Below, one piece after another: positions 1 through 18,330 of a stretch of 19,101 bases of DNA. The position numbers and the translations under genes were made by a program. The stretch covers positions 1-19,101 of the forward strand of contig JADGJL010000522.1 in the NCBI GenBank assembly GCA_027600665.1. Direction: 5' to 3'. This stretch comes from Irineochytrium annulatum (taxonomy: Eukaryota; Chytridiomycota; Chytridiomycetes; Chytridiales; Chytridiaceae). Position 1 is the first letter of the stretch. Every line of letters begins with the position of its first letter. The notes beneath the pieces were generated by a model. That model was not told the origin of the DNA and did not search any database. It saw nothing but the letters and a program-made list of their open reading frames with translations.

Positions 1-3000
1 GGGTTGGGAAGGGCACGGTCAAGGCGCCAAAGGGCGGGATTGCGGCGGCCGGGATTCGGACGGTGGCGATCATCGGGGCGCCTGCGGAGGTGCGTCAGAC
101 TTGGCTGGAAAATATGGGAGGGGCCGAGGTAGTGGATAAGCTCGGCATTTCGAAGCAGGAGAGAAAGAGGCAGGAGGTCATCTTCGAGGTGCTATGCACA
201 GAGAGAGACTATGTGGAGGATTTAGAGACTGTGATAGAGGTAGGAGTTTCCGTAACATATTTGGTTATGACGAGCCAACCCTGTCTCTTGTTAGGTCTAC
301 ATCAAGCAGTTGAAGAAAAACAAGCTGTTGCGGCCAAAGGATATGTCTGTCATCTTCTCTAACATTGAAACAATCATGCCTGTCAACTCGGTAACATGTT
401 AAACTTTTAATTTCTTATCCCGCCTAACTGGAAGGACAGGAACTGTTGAAGCTTTTGGAAGACAGACAGGCGGAGTCAGAGAACGGCGTTGTGGAGCAAG
501 TCGGTGATATTTTTATCCGTGTGGTTAGTACGCTTCTTCACTTTTTCATGCACGACTAAATGCCAATAACTATACAGAGCGACTACCTGAAGATCTATAC
601 AATGTACTGCAGCAATCATCCCTACGCGGCGATGAAGTTGCAGGCTGTACGACATTCGAAGGCCGTCGGCAAATTTTTAGATCAATGCGCGCAAATGCCG
701 GAAAGCAGGAACTTGAGCTTGTCGCATTTCCTGTACGCTTTGTTCAAGCAACGCTAGCCTCTCTAATTGTTGTCTCAAGCTTGAAGCCGGTGCAAAGAAT
801 TTGCAAATACCCTCTACTTCTCCGGGAAATGATTAAGCAAACGGACGCGTCGCACCCGGACTCGGCTAACTTGATTAAAGCATTGATGAAGATTGAGACG
901 GTGGTAACAATCGTCAACGAGGGCGCGCGGCAGGCTGAGGGTGTTCACAAGATGATTGAGCTCCAGGCGAGGTTCACTCAGGTACTCTCTCATTATCAGC
1001 ACCACCGCTAAGTCAATGCCTTGGCTTATAGAAGGTGAATATTGTTGCCCCGTCTCGAACGATGAAGAAATTCGGCGCTATGGACCTGATTGCGGCGTCG
1101 GGCGAGCGCAAGAAGCGCGAGCTCTTCTTGTTTAACGACATGCTTCTCATGGCCAAGGCGCCGGACGCCCACTCTGACCGGCTTAAAGTCGTTGCAATTG
1201 TGCCTTTCGACATGATCCTTATCAACGCGCCCCAGGACGAGCCGGGCAAAGAGAACCTTATCGAGATCGTTCACATTAATTCCGCAAAATTCACCTTGGC
1301 CGGGGACAGCCCCTTCACGAAGACGAGCTGGATTAAGGCGTTTACAGAGGTGACGGATGCTTGGATGGCTTTGAAAGGAAGCAAGCTTGACTCGGTCGAG
1401 GGGCGGGTTATCAGGAGCGATAAGATGTCGGAAGACGACAAGGAGGACGATATTGAAAGCGAGTGCGGGAACACGGAGTCGAACCTCGGAGTGCTTTCTT
1501 CCCTTAGCGTACCTAATCTTTCGGCGAGGCCGTCGGTCAATAAGCCGATCGAGGAGGGAAGGGCGCAGAGTGTCGAGGCGCTGCAGGACTCTGGCGCGGA
1601 CGTCAGCACGTTCAAGGAGGTCTCCATCTCGTTGACGTCACTTGCGACGCCTTCCATTGTCGAGACGCGCGCGCCGCCGCCTCTGCCAATCCATGGGACA
1701 CCCCTCACAGCGCAGAAGCCTACGACCGCACAATCGGCACCGGCAATATCGGTTGCTTTGGCGACAGCGAACACGGTTGTAGCATCCTCAAGCTATCAAA
1801 GACCCGCGGCCGCGCCTGCGACGAGAGCTCCGACGCGACCCATTTCCCCTTCACCTTCTACAAACTTTTCGACGTTATCCTCCGCACCGCGCCCCCTCAG
1901 CTCCCTCAAGCCCCCGTCGACGACCTCAAATGGGAGCATCCACGACTCTTCCGAGGATCTCTCCGGCTCCGCCTCATCCCTCAGCGGAAAAGTTTCGCCC
2001 TCGGTCCTCCGTTCACACTCGGTCCGTGCCCCGAACCCAACACCGGCTGGCTCGCTTGCGAACCTGAACGGCTCCAACTCGAATCTCTCCGGCTCGAACC
2101 ACAACCTCTCAGCACGCATCGCGAGCAACCACTTTATCGTCCAAGACCTTAACGCGTCCCTCATGCGCGCCTCAACCCCTGTGCCGACCCATGCGCGCTC
2201 AGCTACCGCCGACCCTGCCCCGCCGGCGGCCCCTTACCAAGCCGCCATCGCATCCCAGCCTCCGTCAGAAGCCGTGCATGGCCGCTCCCTGAGCGCACAA
2301 CCACGCGCCCTGCCGCCGCGCGGCGCCGGCTTCAGCACGTCGACGTCGACCCAGATCCCGGCACGCGCTGCGATGGCTGCCGCTCAGCTGCCAAACCCGG
2401 CGTTCCAGCGCAACGCGACCGTGGTCGACGCGGCGCTCCGGGGCAGGGGGCTCGTCATCTCGGCCACCGTCAAGGAGCGTCAGGAGCGGCTCGCGCAGGA
2501 GATGGCGGCGTTCGCCGTCCCGGGAACGGCCGTGGCGGACAGTGGCAAGGTTTCCGTCGCCGTAGCGCAGCCACCCCCAACGCCCGCTGTCGTGACGGCG
2601 CCCGTGAGCGGACGGGGTAGGACGCAGTCGATGGTGTCGAGAGAGGCGGAGGTGGAGCCGACGACGGCCGTGAACGCTGCTTTGATGGCGAGGGGTCTGA
2701 TGGCGAATACTGGCGCGCTCGGCGGCCAGCCGTCGTTGAAGCCGTCCGTGAATGCAGTAAAGAACTCGTCGCTGCAGAATACCTCTGTGGATGAAGACAG
2801 CAAGGGCGGGGACGACGGAGAGTGAGTGGGATCTTACAGCCATACGCTTCCATGACCGATATTAACGCGTTTTCTCCGTTTTACAGCATCAAGCAGAAGA
2901 AGATGGCCGTCAACAAACCGATCAAGCACGCGCAGGTCGTCGACGTCGCGCGGAAGTCGAAGAAGGACCTGAAGGACTTTGTAAGACAGATGCATACGCT

Positions 3001-3495: not shown

Positions 3496-3737
3496 GAGGA
3501 GTTTGATAGGACCTGCGTTTCTCCCGCTACCTTACTTTCTATTTACGTTAATTGTTATAATAAGTTGCAGCGTTTATATCTAATTTACTGCTAAGTAACT
3601 AGTGTTGAATGAGAATGATTACAGTTTCTTGATTGTCTCCCACCGCGCCACGCGACCCTAGCCTCGCTCCATAACCGACGACCCGCGCCCCGTCACCCAC
3701 AAGACACAGCCCATAAGTGGTGCATCCTCCGTCACCA

Positions 3738-5031
3738 ATGTATACAACTATAGAGCAATGCCATGTCCTGCTGGGCGTTCGACCCGGCGCTACTCGCAAC
3801 GAGATCCGCGCCGCTTTCCGACGACTGGCCCTACGCCACCACCCAGACCGCAACGGGCCTGATGCGAACGGCGATCGGTTCAGGGAAATATCGGAGGCCT
3901 ATCAAGTGCTGATGGAGCGGGCAGAAGAGAGGACCAGCGTCGCCGGCGACCCGCCACTCGCTGAAGGTGCTGTGCCCGTGTATGCGGGCGGCGCCGCGGC
4001 GAAGGACCGGAGGTCTCAGGATGCGACGCGGCCAACGAGGAAGGCTAGCTCGTCATCGTGCTCGCAGGGAGGAGTTAGGGCCGACACGTCACCGGCCGCC
4101 ACCGCGTTCTCGTCTGCCTGCCGTGGTTCCGAACCACACAAGGACCACATCGACCCGTTCGACGCCATTAAGCGAACACATTCAGCTCCCAATCTCCAGA
4201 GCTTGCGGGGCAGCTACGTCCACTCGCAGCGATATGGTGAGGTTGTTTGAGGTACTTCCATCCTGACAGCCGTCATTAGGCACGAGCCGCGCTGGCAGCT
4301 TCGTTTGGACGGCCGAACAGGGATCCGGGCAGCAGCAGGAGACCCGACCGCACCGGGAATCCGCCGGCGTCGCGGGAACGACGCGTGCGCCTCCTGCACC
4401 ATGGCCACAACCGGTGGATAGAAATCGACCGGCATCGCCAGCGGGCCGACAGACCCCGCCAGTGTCATCCCAGGATGACTGGCCTTCGAAAGAACGCGAA
4501 GCCTCGCAAGAACCAGCGTCGGGACGCGCTCGCACCGTCGATTTGGACGACAGCCGCGGCAGCCGCGACTTGCGCCCGACCCCAAGGTCGCTCCGTGAGA
4601 AGGCCGCCGCCGCAGCGGCACGCCTTCGCGTGGCGCTCGACTCGCATCGATCGTGGGGTGCACGCGACGCCACGCCGACGGCACCCGGCGTCCCCGATTC
4701 CACCGTGGCGCCGGAGTCGCCGACTGAAGACAACAGCCGAAGGAAGATGAATATCTTCACGAAGCTCAAAGAGCGATTGGCGCGCATGAAGAAGCCGAAG
4801 GAGGCGGAAGCTGCTGCGGCGGGTGACCGCGAGAAAGGCGAGGGCGACACGGAGTTCGGGGCGACGATGCCGGCGCATGGTAAGCAGGAGGAGCCAGACA
4901 TAGAAGAGCTGCACAAGATGTTGTTGGAGGTTGATCAAGAAGTCTTTTGGTCCACGCTGCATCATGAGCTGAATGAGGATCTTATGCTCGAAATTTTGTT
5001 GAAGCTGAAGGCGCGGGCACAGGTGGTTTAG
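3738..5031 (+). CDS. J-domain (DnaJ-like, class C) protein
   Basis: Putative Hsp70 co-chaperone. Exons are 3738-4236 and 4280-5031, separated by a 43-nt intron (GTGAGG..TTAG); the total is 416 residues. Without splicing the first exon would stop at 4250. Using the acceptor at 4279 keeps one long frame open to 5031, whereas the alternative AG at 4269 soon meets a stop. The J domain lies at about residues 5-60 with an intact HPD motif at 35-37, which stimulates Hsp70 ATPase in this family. No Gly/Phe region or zinc-finger domain follows, so it is class C. The rest is low-complexity Ser/Pro/Arg/Ala sequence, then a charged Lys/Glu-rich segment and a short predicted helix (EELHKMLLEVDQEVF) near the C terminus. 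ATG 3738 is chosen because the in-frame codons just upstream lack another ATG and the domain starts immediately after it. The function beyond Hsp70 binding is not recognisable. Confidence 0.8.
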
Positions 5032-6338: not shown

Positions 6339-7669
6339 ATGATCCCGCCCTCTCACTCGCTCGTCCGCTACGACAACCCGGTCCTCGTCTCCAAGACGAC
6401 GGACGGGCTCGCCAAGGCGTCCCAGAAGGCCGTCGTGGGCGGATCTAACCAGCTGCAAGGCGGCGGAGGCGGCGGTGGCGGGGGCGCGGGCGGACCTAGT
6501 GGCGGCGGAGGACAGCAAGGGCTGATGATGATGGAGACGAAGATGGGGGGAAAACCGCCACTGCAGGGCGGGCAGCTGAATGGGGCGAAGAAACTACCGC
6601 CCGTGGATGATAAGGGGAGAGTCAAGACGCCGACTCAGACGGAGGATATTTTGAATTCGATCTTGCCGCCGAGGTGGGGATCAAAAGGCCTTTTGTTTTT
6701 TTTTTCTTTTTTCAGGCATGGCGATCGGCATCAGTTGCTGCTTTCATTTGTTGTCTGCGATTATTTGTTTGGATCTGGAGAATGTTTGAGGTATTTACTT
6801 GTGCTTCTATTTCTAGAGAATGGGAAGAGAGCGGACAGCTTTGGGTGCAGAAGGTGTCGAGCACGCCCGCGACACGGCTGGATGTTATCAACTTGCAGGT
6901 GCGATCGGCCGGAACAGCTGTTTGTTGTAAGATGGAGCTAAACCGTTGGTGCTTTGATTTACAGGAACAACTCGACCACATGCTACAAAAGCGGCAGGCG
7001 AGGGAAACGGGTATTGATCCTGTTCGCCGGGAGCTTTACGGACAATGCTTTGGTGGGTTTTGTCGTTGATTGCTTTATATCTCGCGGGTTTATAATTGCG
7101 ACTATCGAGTATTTACGCAATCTCGATATAGATGAGCTCATCCGGCAGGTGACCATTTCCTGCCAAGAGCGCGGTCTGCTCCTTCTTCGCGTTAGGGATG
7201 AGATCCGGATGTCGATTGCCGCGTACCAGACCCTGTATGAGAGCTCCGTGGCGTTCGGGATGCGGAAGGCGCTTCAAGCCGAGCAAGGGAAATCTGATAT
7301 GGAGAACAGAGTTCGTGCTCCTTTTCTTCGAACATTTTGGCTCCGCTGTTGCTTCGGCTGTTTTACTGCTCCAGCTTGTGTGATGTTGATGCCATTCTCG
7401 AATAGATAAAGGAGCTCGAGGAAGAGAAGCGACAGCTGGAGCAGACTGTGCTTGAGCTGAAGGCGAAGTGCGAGGCGATCGAGAAGAGGGAGAGCGAGCG
7501 GAGGGCGATGGAGGAGCGGAAGCACGCGGAGGAGATTGCGTTCCTGAAGAAGACGAACGTTCAGTTAAAGGTACGTCATTGCTTCGCCGCTTAGAGATTT
7601 TCGACATGCTCATTTCCGTTCATCCCACAGACGCAACTCGAGGGTATTTTGAGCCCACAGAAGAAATAG
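6339..7669 (+). CDS. DNALI1: Axonemal dynein light chain, DNALI1/p28 family
   Basis: Light chain of inner-arm axonemal dyneins, expected in the flagellar axoneme. Six exons are seen: 6339-6673, 6817-6898, 6965-7052, 7132-7310, 7406-7570 and 7631-7669. All introns are GT..AG and the joined frame gives 295 residues, a little longer than the roughly 255 typical of p28/DNALI1. Family hallmarks appear in order: the N-terminal SLVRYDNPVLVS segment, the TEDILNSILPPREW block split by intron 1, SSTPATRLDVINLQEQLD, GIDPVRRELYGQCFDELIRQ, CQERGLLLLRVRDEIRM and the glutamate/lysine-rich coiled-coil tail ending GILSPQKK. The N-terminal part carries a Gly-rich insertion at about residues 47-65. Intron 1 (143 nt) contains a long T run and an unused AG. 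ATG 6339 starts the conserved N terminus. The gene implies a motile flagellated stage. Confidence 0.95.
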
Positions 7670-12543: not shown

Positions 12544-12660
12544 ATGGACGTCGCGAGGTTTACGGCCAGCTACCTTCGCAAACTGAGTCGCGACCCGGAC
12601 GCGGTTGCCGCCGTCCAAGCCGACCTCATCGCCGGGCGGGCCTTCGAGCGCACCGAGAGG

Positions 12661-13666
12661 ATGGCCGTCATGATGCTGGACATAAGCGGGTACTCCAAGA
12701 TGTCTGCTGACCTAGTGAGTTCCGCAGATTGTGCAAGGATTTGGTTCGGTTTTGGAGTGGTTTCTTCTACGACAGCGACAAGGTTGTCCTGGTTGTATTT
12801 TAAGCAAGGGAGGCCGCTTTGTGTTGTGGTCGCTTGTATCGTATTGTTCAAAAATCGATGTATGGAAGGGGCTCGGCGTGGATCGAAAAGCGCGACGCAC
12901 TGGTTGCTTTTGTCTTAAAATGCATTTGTACTTACAATTTCCTTCAAGACGTTCCTTGGCAAGATGGCGTCAGAAATTATCACCGTATCCATAGGAGCCT
13001 ACATGAATCAGGTAGCTCATCAGGGATGATGCGTTAATAATTCACACACTGCTCTACTTACGCGCGCTCCTCATACATTAAAAGATTATTGATGTCATCT
13101 CGCTGTACAGTGGCGACATTGTCAAGTTCTTAGGTAGGCGAGGGCATTCATTTGTATTAACGTGTTCGTAACGTTGCAGGTGACGCCGTACTTGTGACGT
13201 TCTCAAAGAAACATCCGCTGGAGTCTCAGGGCCAGATTGTTGTACGTGCGAAAAAGTGCTGCCTGCACATCATGTCGGCATACCCAGTTATGGATCTTGA
13301 TATGAAGATTGCGGGAACCAACGCGATTATCAATGGCAGCAAGAATGATAGTGCTACTCACCATAGCGGCGTGGAGAATCGGGTTACACAGTTGCGCTTG
13401 CATTGCGCCATCACAACCGGTGATGTGTCTCGATTGTCGGCGACTTCGAGCGCCGAATGGACTACTTCATCTACGGCGACTGCCTGGCGGCTCTTGGCGC
13501 AATATTAGATGCTACAAAGCATGGTGAAATTGGTGTCACCACGCATGTGATCAATAATCTGGAGCCCAGCAGCGGGGAGAGGATCCATTCAATTGCATCC
13601 TCCTTGACCGACGAGCACGTGCTGTTTACCTCTTCTGCTGTGGAAACGTTGGCCCTAGAGATGCTC
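12661..13666 (+). other. First cyclase domain (C1) of the pseudogene
   Basis: The pieces MMLDISGYSKMSADL, TFLGKMASEII, DVISLYSGDIVKFLGDAVLV and, after a frame change near 13431, VGDFERRMDYFIYGDC and LGAILDATKHGEIGVTTHVI follow the order of ADCY10-type C1 domains. Both metal-binding Asp positions are kept. The first intron (12715-12948, 234 nt) is longer than its neighbours. Confidence 0.8.
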
Positions 13667-13930
13667 TAATTCAACATGAGCAAGGACGTGGTAGCAAAAC
13701 CGGACACACACTCGGAGTCTATTGGAGGAGCTGAGCCTGATGAGGCTTGTCATACTCAGAGAAACGGCCTAGACAGCGGATTTCTGGGGAACTTTATAAA
13801 TGAGTCAACAAGGCACCAATTGGAGACTGCACAAAACTTCATTACATACCGGTCGACTTTGACCGGCAAACGTAGTTCCACCGATGTTTGCGACCAGTCT
13901 CATCACACCAACATTGATGCCGAATTTTGA

Positions 13931-14640
13931 TCTGTCTCCACCGTTTTTGTTGCCCTGAACTTTCCCTTCAACACCACCACTGTGCAGAATGTTGTCCAAT
14001 GCTTTTTACGTGCACTTAAAAAGCATGGTGGAATCTTTCAACAATATGCTGGTATGTCTTCTGCACTTACTTGCAAATCTTACATTGTTGATTCCTCAGT
14101 GGATGATAAAGGACAAACTTTGTTGGGTCTATTCGGCTTGGCGGTAAGCGCATCACGCATTTGGGCACAGTTTCCCGCTGGTTGCTCACCCATCCTGTAG
14201 CCCTATGCCCACATCAACAATAGCAAGAAATGTGTTCTTGCCTTATTAGACTTTCATAATGATCTGCAGCACCGCAAAATGGTGGATTACGTTCACCCCG
14301 CGATAGCTATAGCCACAGGAGAAATACTCTTCACGTCTGTGGGCAACAAAAACCGTAGCAAGACAAGTCATTTAGGTTTTTCATTTCTGTCCTGCGTTGT
14401 TTGTCTAAGCTTGCGTTCAGGTGATGTTGTGATCACAGCTGCACGTTGAATGGGAACAGCGAAAAAAGAGAACATTGTTGTTATTGACCAGGCCTCAAAT
14501 GAAAACATAAGCTCATCATGGAGACAAAGTACATTGGGCTCATTAAAGTTAAAAGCAAGACGCACCCGCTGCAGGTTTTTGGCGTGGCCGTCAATGAGGG
14601 ACCTTTAGGTGAAGCGCTAACAGTGGACGAGTTAATCATG
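13931..14640 (+). other. Second cyclase domain (C2) of the pseudogene
   Basis: After a TGA at 13928, STVFVALNF starts the C2 domain. VDDKGQTLLGLFGLAPYAH is reconstituted across two introns, then come IAIATGEILFTSVGNKNR, GDVVITAAR, a TGA at 14447, GTAKKENIVVID and, in another frame, IKVKSKTHPLQVFGVAV. The order and spacing match ADCY10 C2 and its trailing strand. Confidence 0.8.
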
Positions 14641-15089
14641 AGTCACAAGCTTAGATTTGGTTACCAGCATGAAAGAACAGTCATTACAGAGAGATTTGAG
14701 AGCTGGCGGGACTTTGGAGGAGAGCTGTGGTGGTGGTCGAGGCTTCAAGTGGACTTGGGAAATCATCATTGGCCGAGGACCTTATGAATTTGGCGCGGAA
14801 GGCCTCAATACCTATTTGTCTTATGCAAGGTAAACAAAATCTGCATGAAACCTCCCTCTTAACAATGCAAAAGGTGTCCAGAAAGATCAATGGACACCAT
14901 TTCGTGGGCTTCAGCCCCTGTTGGCCTTCTTACGTCATCAGTGCAACTCAGCTGAGGCTACTACCCAAGACATTGGCATCGCGAGATTTGATAAGATAAT
15001 TGGGGCCAGCAGCAGCATGTCCGTTCCCCTCCATGCATTTGATGATCGCATGTCTTTGAAGGCAGATGCCACTGGCACTGGTGCCATTG

Positions 15090-15094
15090 AAAAG
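15090..15094 (+). repeat. Target-site duplication AAAAG, left copy
   Basis: AAAAG immediately precedes the LTR start and is repeated identically at 15481-15485 after its end. A 5-bp duplication is the usual size for LTR retrotransposon integration. Confidence 0.85.
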
Positions 15095-15204
15095 TGTTAG
15101 AAAGTGGCCTGTGGTGTTACCCGCTAGGCCGGGGTCATTCCATACCACTGCACGGGCTTATATAGGATAACACCATATATTAGGTAGTGCCAGAGCCTCT
15201 GCTC

Positions 15205-15244
15205 CCCCTCGAGGGGATGCCTACGTTACTCCGCTTCGGCGGAG
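15205..15244. repeat. Two adjacent hairpins inside the LTR
   Basis: CCCCTCGAGGGG at 15205-15216 is a perfect 12-base palindrome. CTCCGC-TTCG-GCGGAG at 15229-15244 is a 6-bp stem closed by a TTCG tetraloop. Both lie about 45-85 nt after the TATA-like site and would fall in the 5' leader of an LTR transcript if it reads plus. Confidence 0.7.
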
Positions 15245-15360
15245 ATCAAGAGGTTTAGCAGCTATGCTGTGGACCGACCACATTGAGCCGTAGTTCTCTC
15301 CTACATTCTAGCTACTCGTTAAATACAGATTCTACTGTTTATGAAGACTATGAGACATGG

Positions 15361-15443
15361 GCTGACGCGTCGGCGTCAACACGTCACAGGCGCTAACAAC
15401 AAAGTATCCTACTCGTCCACGCTGCCGTGTCGGACGCGTCAGC
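15361..15443. repeat. 11-bp inverted repeat near the LTR 3' end
   Basis: GCTGACGCGTC at 15361-15371 is the exact reverse complement of GACGCGTCAGC at 15433-15443, separated by 61 nt. It may be a structured or protein-binding element in the LTR. Confidence 0.65.
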
Positions 15444-15480
15444 GAAGCATCGCCTTGGCGTGACTCATCATATTCTAACA

Positions 15481-15485
15481 AAAAG
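15481..15485 (+). repeat. Target-site duplication AAAAG, right copy
   Basis: Identical to 15090-15094 and directly follows the LTR terminal CTAACA. Cyclase coding sequence resumes at once. Confidence 0.85.
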
Positions 15486-18330
15486 TGGCTTCTGAAGATT
15501 ATGCAAGAAGCCGGAGCTGATGTTGAGCTTGCGCCTTTGTTATCCGTCGTGTTCCCAGGGTTTACTTTCCATGACACGGCAAAAACGAGCGCGCTTGGCG
15601 GCACTGCCCGCAACGACCTCCTTAAACCACTGCTTGTTAAAATTGTGGAAAGCTATGCGGCTGTATTCATTTTTGATGACGCACAATGGTTTGACTCAGG
15701 CACCTTAGACGTCTTGGTGCCAGTTGCAAAAGGGTGTCCCAAGGTATCTGAACTATTTTCTTTGCAATTCAAGCTATATTGGAGAAGATTTTTCTGCAGA
15801 TACTTTCACGGCCAATACAGGACTCCACGAACAAAGCTATCAGCGCTGTTGTCTCCTTAACGGACACGACTCACTTTGTTATTGACGAAGGCGGAGACAT
15901 TCCAGATGATCGTGGGTGTTCAACTAATATCAACATACTAACGCAAACACAAATGAGCAAAAACTGAAAATGATGACGGCTCAAATAGATTCAGTCGCCC
16001 CAGAATTAGCTGAAGCAAGGCATTTGAAAACAAGTGGCAACCCGTTGTTTATGCAAATGACCTTGGAAATAGTTGTTGCGAAGATTGGGACAGATTTACA
16101 AGTGACGGAAGACTATCATCTATGTGTTAGTAATGACAAAATAACCACTGAATCCATTCTTTCCGATCTTGGGGCAGCAATTCTCTTTCAATTTGATCGC
16201 CTCAATCCGGTGTTTCAGCGAATGTTGAAAGCGGCATCCATTCTTGGCCAGGTAGCCTTCCAAGTCAATAGACGCAAAATGCCATCCCGCTAATCCACAC
16301 TGTAGTACTTTGTTCTCATGGATGTTTTGGCTATTCTCGCGCTTGAAATGTCGGAAGATGAAGCGCTGCAGTTCATGAAGGAGAATGACCATTTTGCTTT
16401 TGTTTTCTTTCCAGACTGTTTTCAGAATCGCCGGGAAAATATAGCGCCATGGGAGTTTTCTGAACTAGCAAAGGATGCGGATGAAGTTGCACAATTCAGG
16501 GGCACTGGCATGCAACTCTCCTTTCGACACATTGGAATACTCAACGCCATTTACGAGGCCCTCTCATACGAGGAGCGGTCAGAGATGAACAAGTTTGTGG
16601 CGAGAGCCTATGAGAACCTCTTCATGCAGGGAAATCACAATGTCTTGCCATCTGTTGAGTTTCACTACTCCCGCACTGGTGAAATCACTAAGATCATTCA
16701 CTTCAGGGATATGCTAGGGTGCGCATCCACTGCTCAATGCTGTTGAACCTGACGTTTTTTTAGATGTAGTCTCATTCAGCACTTCCACTGCGTTGAAGGA
16801 AATACGGACACTAGAATCACCTGATCGCAGCGGGCACTCTCATGAGGTAGCACCGCTGTGGCGCGCGAGATGGTTGGCTCACTTGTGCGCTGGATATACT
16901 TTGATGAACATGTACCCAAAAGAGAAAACTGCCGGTTGCCTTGCCCTTGAACTAGTGGACGGCCAGGCGTGGCCGAGGGCAAGGAAGGAATACCAGCTAG
17001 CAATTTCTTTATCAAGGCGACGAGCTTTAATGCTGTGGGTGCAGACGTCGGGCGGGAGAAAGCCGAGGAAGCCACTATCCAGCGAGCATCCCGAGCTAGT
17101 GGCCGTTTTCGAAGTCAAGAACATGATTTTTCGCAATCTTCTGCAGGTCGCTTCACGAGATAGAGCCGTCACAAAGCAAGATAACGAACTGATTATATAC
17201 CGCTACATGGTGCTTCTGTTTACATATAAAGCTGACATGGATGCACTGTACGTGTTGATCTGTACTCCTTCCCATCTAATGACCACAAAGATCTCTTTGT
17301 CTACTAAAACTTGCTTACTACTCGCAGTACACTAATCCAATGCCGCCCAAGTTGTTTTTATGGACAGCAAATCGTATCGAAATAACTGACCCTGCTGACC
17401 TGTACACGCTGGCATATGTGCAAACCGTCGTTGGCAATGTGTCCAAAATGGTTACTTATCTTGAAAGATATTCAAGTTTTGCGCACATTCGTGGTGATCA
17501 TGCGCAAGCCGTGTTGTCATCCTGTTATGCTTGCGGAATGGCGTACATGTCAGGCGATTTAGTTTTCTATGAATGGGGGTGTCAATCCAATGTATTTGCG
17601 AGACCCTTCACTGAAGGAAAATCAACTGGTCGCTTTTATGGTTGCCTATGTATCCTTGAAAATGGCCTTGCTGAGGGGACGCCATTTCATCGAAGTGGAT
17701 CAGTTGAAGTCAGAATTTGAGCCTCTCGGAAAGTTCAGCGACACAATTAGCTACACGCGTGGCGCTACGGAGCTGTATAACGGGTGGTGTCAAACATATC
17801 ACGGTGATTATGAAGCCTCACTGGCTGCAATCGAGGCCCTCGAGCAAAAGATAGACGTAACGACAATTGGTCCCTCAAATGCAGACATCCTCTCCTCAGC
17901 CTTCCTATGGGTGGCGCTTTTCTTCGACCCATCACACTCAATGCTTTTGGTTCCTCAACTTCGAGCAGAACAGATCACACCAAAGAGATGGAATGACGAT
18001 GAGATGGCTCGTATGATTCGTGTAATGTCGCTCGTTGCTGCACATTTGAAAAGGAGTAGGATTCAGGTGTTGGCATACTGGGCCATGCAAGGATTCTCGA
18101 CTATGGCCCTCATTTTGCAAGGACGGCCGACAGCTGCAGCTCGAAGGTTGAAGCTGAAGCTACACTCACGCAAGCGGAAGGCGTAAATCAAATATCTAAG
18201 GTTGTTGGGAGGCGTGCTGAATGGGCTGAGTGGGAAGTACTCTAAGCGCGACGAAGCATGTAAGAATAGAGCGGCACAAGTATTCAGGGAAATTGGCGCG
18301 CCGGTCCACCTACGATGGGTTGAGAGTTGA

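Follow-up and report, generated by a model that had tools for sequence, protein, structure and literature searches.

Does a dead cyclase gene in a flagellate chytrid mean that its genome has lost a signalling enzyme of the flagellum? The question is raised by contig JADGJL010000522.1 of the aquatic fungus Irineochytrium annulatum (Chytridiales), here called the window in its whole length of 19,101 nucleotides, in which an initial annotation had recognised a decayed gene related to the soluble adenylyl cyclase (sAC) ADCY10. We find that this locus is very probably a recently pseudogenised copy from a large sAC/STAND protein family of I. annulatum that evolves by birth and death, and that the enzyme type is not lost but multiplied in this organism. 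The pseudogene in itself is ordinary. The genome assembly comprises 26.9 Mb in 1082 contigs, the window being contig C573; Irineochytrium loci are labelled by contig (C39, C119b, C411a etc.), annotated proteins as P0058 etc., and the two halves of the cyclase pair are referred to as C1 and C2.

Positions 12544-18327 of the forward strand represent one 13-exon ADCY10-like gene (Table 1), as given by spliced protein-to-DNA alignment to C39, the closest paralog, which is intact and encodes 1537 residues in 13 exons. The order of its regions is that of the family (C1 and C2 followed by the P-loop NTPase and the C-terminal region), and its 12 GT-AG introns coincide in position with those of C39, except that the last is slightly shifted; the aligner takes GT-AG introns only. 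The decayed state proposed for this gene in a flagellate chytrid is thereby confirmed, and so are the single lesions. In addition to the three in-frame stops predicted as a minimum, a late TAA occurs 48 residues short of the C39 end, and the several frame changes amount to six frameshifts, of which those first placed at 13431 and 17575 are now located at 13434 and ~17562. Aligning the gene to ADCY10-like proteins, as had been suggested for placing the breaks, was carried out with C39 and two further reference paralogs; with the latter, the four stops were identical and the six frameshifts were recovered within ~45 bases. The interrupting long terminal repeat (LTR) is real as well: it has the ends TGTTAG...CTAACA, is flanked on both sides by AAAAG, and has 17 matches in its own genome including itself, among them full-length copies of 98, 96, 95, 89, and 86% identity. 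Both metal-binding Asp codons and the splice sites survive, as had been noted. Compared to intact paralogs, the window copy carries several independent disabling changes, as expected for a pseudogene. Pfam searches with ten single fragments of the window gave nothing above cut-off.

The exons of the window gene match some 40 contigs of its own genome, and on account of these matches we rejected the idea that the enzyme type has been lost. With exon 10 as a one-per-gene marker and the window included, 77 matches were obtained at E<=0.1, 74 at E<=1e-3, and 67 at E<2e-11. For the C-terminal exon, 66 matches were found, a few of which are pieces of one gene; 65 are without a stop, and the sole stop is that of the window copy. 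Except for C716 with six and C411a with three frameshifts, which persist with a closer reference, all of the 20 fetched paralogs (18 out of 20) are free of stops and frameshifts by the same aligner, two of these 18 being truncated where their stretch or contig ends. The proposed genome search for an intact paralog thus succeeded, e.g., with C39. The distant copy L053 (C529) shows at least one apparent stop or frameshift with each of three references and was counted neither as intact nor as broken. C716 has no stop and no excess of non-synonymous divergence (dN) over C759, and may be an even younger dead copy or contain local sequence errors. Several contigs carry two to five family copies. Since the copies keep their introns, they originated by DNA duplication, and retroposition was rejected for the same reason.

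Within one gene, the closest paralog of the part comprising cyclase pair and NTPase, hereafter the chassis, can differ from that of the C-terminal part. The breakpoints lie just behind a conserved FRHI motif, and the copies have therefore recombined. In C411a, the N-terminal 1040 residues match C759/C716 (nucleotide identity 0.71-0.88), followed by a match to C412b (0.62-0.68), and C119d resembles C119b first (0.71-0.92) and then C759/C716 (0.68-0.74). In case of the window copy, identity to C39 is 0.73-0.84 first and then drops to background. The N-terminal parts of both are 77% identical; genome-wide, the C-terminal exon of the window has a best match of 48%, with C39 (39%) ranking 20th after the window itself, and neither copy has a near relative of its C-terminal exon in the genome (best matches 48 and 47%). 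In the pairs C39-window, C759-C411a, and C119b-C119d, synonymous divergence (dS) is uneven along the gene; C759-C716 shows fairly even values outside the linker that separates C1 from C2. The trees obtained from residues 1-900 and from residues 1050-1535 are in conflict, and for C411a and C119d the swapped groupings are rejected both ways (log-likelihood differences 721, 611, 169, and 59; p 3e-49 to 5e-5). In the C-part tree, C411a groups with C412b and C119d with C759/C716, both well supported. The N-part grouping recurs in trees of residues 1-515, 540-900, and 901-1030, with a support of only 83.7 for C119b+C119d in the last of these. The N- and C-part trees were quick searches of 18 rows from which C119c (L042), situated outside the burst, was left out; an unlike base make-up was flagged by the tree program for C304b and the window copy (N-part) and for C142 (C-part). 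The breakpoints were placed at residues 973-987 for window/C39, ~1060 for C411a, and 1020-1067 for C119d, and in each of eight triples 0 out of 1000 permutations reached the observed value. Mis-joining of the assembly at the junctions is unlikely, because copies of ~80% nucleotide identity should not confuse an assembler and C39 and C119d are open through the junctions. A quartet of Chytridiales sp. JEL 0842, in which P0201 is closer to P0197 in the C-part and not in the N-part, hints at the same pattern.

Due to this mosaic structure, the sister relationship of window and C39 does not extend to their C-terminal parts, and gene-wide rate and dN/dS tests are confounded, so that these tests were repeated over residues 1-960, where both are sisters. 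In this range, dN of window-C39 is 0.135 and dS 0.683 (dN/dS 0.197), compared to a dN/dS of 0.260 for the intact pair C119b-C119d (0.231 gene-wide). The window branch shows a dN excess of 0.016-0.048 when tested with five outgroups, with an interval above zero for four out of five; no such excess was found over the same residues in the intact control pair C119b-C119d (four outgroups) or in C716-C759 (three outgroups). The confounded whole-gene test gave 0.021-0.061, again above zero for four of five outgroups. Constraint on intact genes can be read from C119b-C119d only, since a broken copy is present in the other four of the five pairs with the lowest dN in the whole-gene comparison. The low dN/dS, the small dN excess, and the 98% identity of the nearest LTR copy fit a duplicate that died late in its existence, in accordance with the recent decay first presumed.

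In a FastTree phylogeny of 152 rows, the window copy falls, with a support of 1.0, into a clade made up of 28 Irineochytrium rows, some of which are the annotated protein plus a model of the same locus. The tree was derived from 168 rows by dropping 13 outside 600-1900 residues and three gappy ones. Chytridiales sp. JEL 0842 and Blyttiomyces form clades of their own (26 rows, 0.999, and 7 rows, 1.0, respectively), and the remaining groups mix genera, Irineochytrium members included. Judging from these sequences, the sAC/STAND burst is specific to Irineochytrium. By locus tag, the named protein matches number at least 22 in Irineochytrium, 35 in JEL 0842, 19 in Phlyctochytrium planicorne, 14 in P. 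bullatum, 8 in Dinochytrium, 7 in Blyttiomyces, and 5 in Chytridium lagenaria; these are annotation-dependent lower bounds, taken partly from the best 120 of 273 and the best 120 of 349 matches. The flagellum-less Mucorales have one or two relatives per species among the matches listed. Of the tie between ADCY10-type enzymes and flagella that had been drawn at the outset, the flagellate host holds, but the link is loose, since organisms without a flagellum carry relatives. P0004, P0185, P0224, and similar gene models bear other names (ABC transporter, phospholipase D1, serine protease) and seem to be fused to neighbouring genes, so that the family is partly hidden in the annotation. PF00211 has 32 matches in the genome, largely on contigs other than those of the burst. 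No description of such an expansion was found in a literature search covering open-licence PubMed Central papers, nor did the main text of PMC10406608 yield any mention of a cyclase.

Alignment to human sAC and the family shows that the two metal-binding Asp, the Lys, and the Arg are kept in all 18 full or partial Irineochytrium models, and the aligned positions of the window copy likewise hold both metal Asp and the adenine-site Lys. The catalytic Asn of C2 (motif NxxxR) is replaced by Ile or Val in 34 out of 38 loci, i.e., in 17 of the 18 models and in 17 of another 20 loci for which short stretches were read, the exceptions being C119c, C113, C376, and C751. Hence the NxxxR motif of ADCY10-type enzymes is absent from the window copy and most burst copies, its Arg being kept in the models. 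Since most intact copies of the subfamily have already replaced this Asn, the surviving Asp residues of the window copy say little alone. The full catalytic set including Asn is present in the Irineochytrium proteins P0058, P0062, and P0069, which belong to conserved groups, and Asn is kept in 30 out of 31 rows of JEL 0842, the remaining row not being aligned there. Rows of the Mucorales (P0052, P0056, P0059-P0061, and others) have Ile or Val for Asn, with the motif end changed to AVRM or AVRL, which is possibly an independent change. This Asn is reportedly important for catalysis. We do not call the Asn-replaced copies working adenylyl cyclases, and their catalysis may or may not be affected, since the NxxxR motif, as discussed in PMC12264004, did not bring back activity when put into the pseudo-cyclase NeoR.

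Two stretches of C39 match PF00211, with 36.8 bits at a cut-off of 21.9. The fold of the C1-C2 catalytic core of ADCY10-type enzymes was recovered as well. AAA_16 is matched at E 1.5e-5 with 26.0 bits, below the cut-off of 32.6, with Walker A and B aligned. The P-loop NTPase, winged helix, and C-terminal repeat sensor that characterise STAND NTPases were all recognised, and the TPR-like sensor seems to begin just after the FRHI motif, which we take to be the equivalent of the MHD motif of NOD-like receptors (NLRs). The highest 19-residue hydropathy of C39 is borderline (1.66), the stretches concerned being inside the cyclase and NTPase regions. In the burst, the C1-C2 linker (C39 residues 216-335, L033) is very variable, with a mean pairwise identity of 0.26 compared to 0.58-0.60 in the cyclase halves.

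Upstream of the pseudogene, the window encodes on the forward strand a RhoGEF domain (529-2825), followed by a PH-like stretch for which the PH models stay below their cut-offs, and a DnaJ domain protein (3717-4247); these genes are ordinary neighbours. The axonemal dynein reported from the same window is present as a light chain exon at 6942-7406 on the forward strand (PF10211, E 3e-31).

Table 1. Exons, breaks, and further features of the decayed sAC/STAND gene in the window.
Feature	Position	Strand	Content	Remark
Exons 1-2 (12544-12714, 12949-13011)	12544..13011	+	Start of C1; first metal Asp 12679	Spliced alignment to C39
Exons 3-4 (13085-13133, 13180-14051)	13085..14051	+	Remaining C1, variable linker, start of C2	Second metal Asp 13182
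Breaks in exons 3-4		+	Frameshift 13434, TAA 13667, TGA 13928	Alignments to C39 and other references
Exons 5-7 (14100-14143, 14201-14375, 14421-14829)	14100..14829	+	C2 and P-loop	P-loop Lys 14760
C2 residues in exons 5-7			Lys 14108, Ile for catalytic Asn 14432, Arg 14444	
Breaks in exons 5-7		+	TGA 14447, frameshifts ~14507 and ~14707	
Exon 8	14874..15743	+	NTPase, Walker B Asp 15675	Solo LTR inside
Solo LTR, 386 bp	15095..15480	+		Target duplication AAAAG at 15090-15094 and 15481-15485
Exons 9-10 (15800-about 15911, 15958-16251)	15800..16251	+	End of NTPase; frameshift ~15881	Exon 10 used as locus-count marker
Exon 11	16306..16718	+	Winged-helix-like end of NTPase module; FRHI motif 16522	Mosaic breakpoint relative to C39 ~16537-16579
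Exons 12-13	16764..18327	+	C-terminal TPR-like part; frameshifts 16801 and ~17562, TAA 18184	No longer closest to C39

That the breaks are sequencing or assembly errors in an intact gene is very improbable. The contigs are short, but the same aligner finds 18 of the 20 other loci of this assembly break-free, the LTR is flanked by a perfect 5-bp target duplication and is related to full-length copies elsewhere, and the window branch carries excess non-synonymous change over residues 1-960. A loss of flagellar sAC in a flagellate, which the dead copy and the dynein light chain gene in the same window might suggest, is extremely improbable: 66 further exon-10 loci are present at E<2e-11, most of the fetched ones are break-free, P0058, P0062, and P0069 hold all catalytic residues, and the window copy belongs to the species-specific burst and not to the groups shared between genera. 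The notable loss considered by the initial annotation therefore does not hold as stated.

The mosaic pattern could also arise without swapping if the C-terminal parts merely mutate or diverge faster, and conservation is indeed lower in the C-part than in the N-part among the chytrid pairs listed. This is improbable, as dS jumps within the gene in C39-window, C759-C411a, and C119b-C119d and is near-even along C759-C716 outside the linker, and as the C-parts of C411a and C119d have other, well-supported partners. Gene conversion that homogenises the N-terminal chassis and leaves old, unconverted C-terminal parts would yield the same tree conflict, and the dS of C119b-C119d (0.24 in C2 and 1.02 in the NTPase) resembles a local conversion tract. 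We nevertheless regard this explanation as rather unlikely, since the C-part of C119d is so close to that of C759/C716 that C-terminal parts must have been shared recently, too. We favour sensor swapping by birth and death, in analogy to fungal NLRs, and regard a role of the burst proteins as sensors as most likely, with moderate confidence.

As shown above, a multi-exon gene for a class III cyclase pair (C1-C2), a STAND P-loop NTPase, and a helical C-terminus was duplicated with its introns to about 67-74 loci; most of the fetched copies are intact, and some decay through stops, indels, and, at the window locus, LTR insertion. According to the preferred explanation, each intact copy may act in the cytosol as a sensor, with the C-terminal TPR-like part binding a cue, the NTPase serving as the switch, and the cyclase pair as the output. 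Slow cAMP formation or nucleotide-bound allosteric signalling is proposed for the latter because the catalysis-helping Asn is replaced in most burst copies. Sensor swapping on a fixed chassis would create new specificities, and surplus copies, among them the window copy, would die. Tentatively, the family could possibly be an NLR-like repertoire on an sAC effector, in which sensor ends are shuffled, the cyclase halves have in Irineochytrium turned to an output by nucleotide binding or slow catalysis, and a family of cAMP enzymes has been drawn into the fast-evolving recognition of zoospore cues or non-self.

Several points weigh against this picture. The weakest of the 74 exon-10 matches have 29-36% identity and may be other STAND proteins. 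Four of the 77 matches contain an internal stop, at least one of them (C645a) only through intron read-through, this copy being break-free once spliced. Both the 20 loci fetched for the break check and the 20 short stretches read for the C2 Asn were chosen by their similarity to the window copy and not at random, and P0003 and P0210 keep the Asn in spite of their position in the burst clade. With respect to the mosaics, the groups for the tree tests were chosen with the identity table already known, and a C-terminal clade of window and C39 is not rejected (p 0.0675). The triple C716/C759/C411a also gave 0 out of 1000 permutations, which we read as the change in C411a, so that the test cannot name the recombinant. 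The structural model has a mean pLDDT (predicted local distance difference test) of 70.7, is without the region of the first Asp, and extends over roughly one quarter of the C-terminal part.

Lineage-specific cyclase expansions are known from the receptor cyclases of trypanosomes, from Naegleria, and from Chlamydomonas, and large families occur in motile protists. Those of trypanosomes, Naegleria, and Chlamydomonas are for the most part membrane receptors or belong to other class III types, and are not known to be sAC/STAND proteins. Compared to animal sAC (ADCY10), Irineochytrium has dozens of copies, Ile or Val in place of the C2 Asn in most burst copies, and exchanged C-terminal parts. Unlike NeoR and the cyclase-like ATP-binding protein of Pseudomonas, the copies described here keep the Arg, and only the Asn is replaced. 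Fungal NLRs, likewise STAND proteins, are compared here by architecture and not by their role in non-self recognition, and differ in that the N-terminal part in Irineochytrium is a class III cyclase pair; they are reported in PMC4986451 to have no matches in chytrids or Mucorales. A dead gene thus leads to a genome with about 70 loci of sAC type, of which most fetched ones are intact and in which sensor ends are exchanged. Two questions can now be tested: do sAC/STAND proteins serve flagellated fungi that lack NLRs as a recognition repertoire that can be expanded, and is a class III cyclase still capable of signalling once its catalytic Asn is gone?

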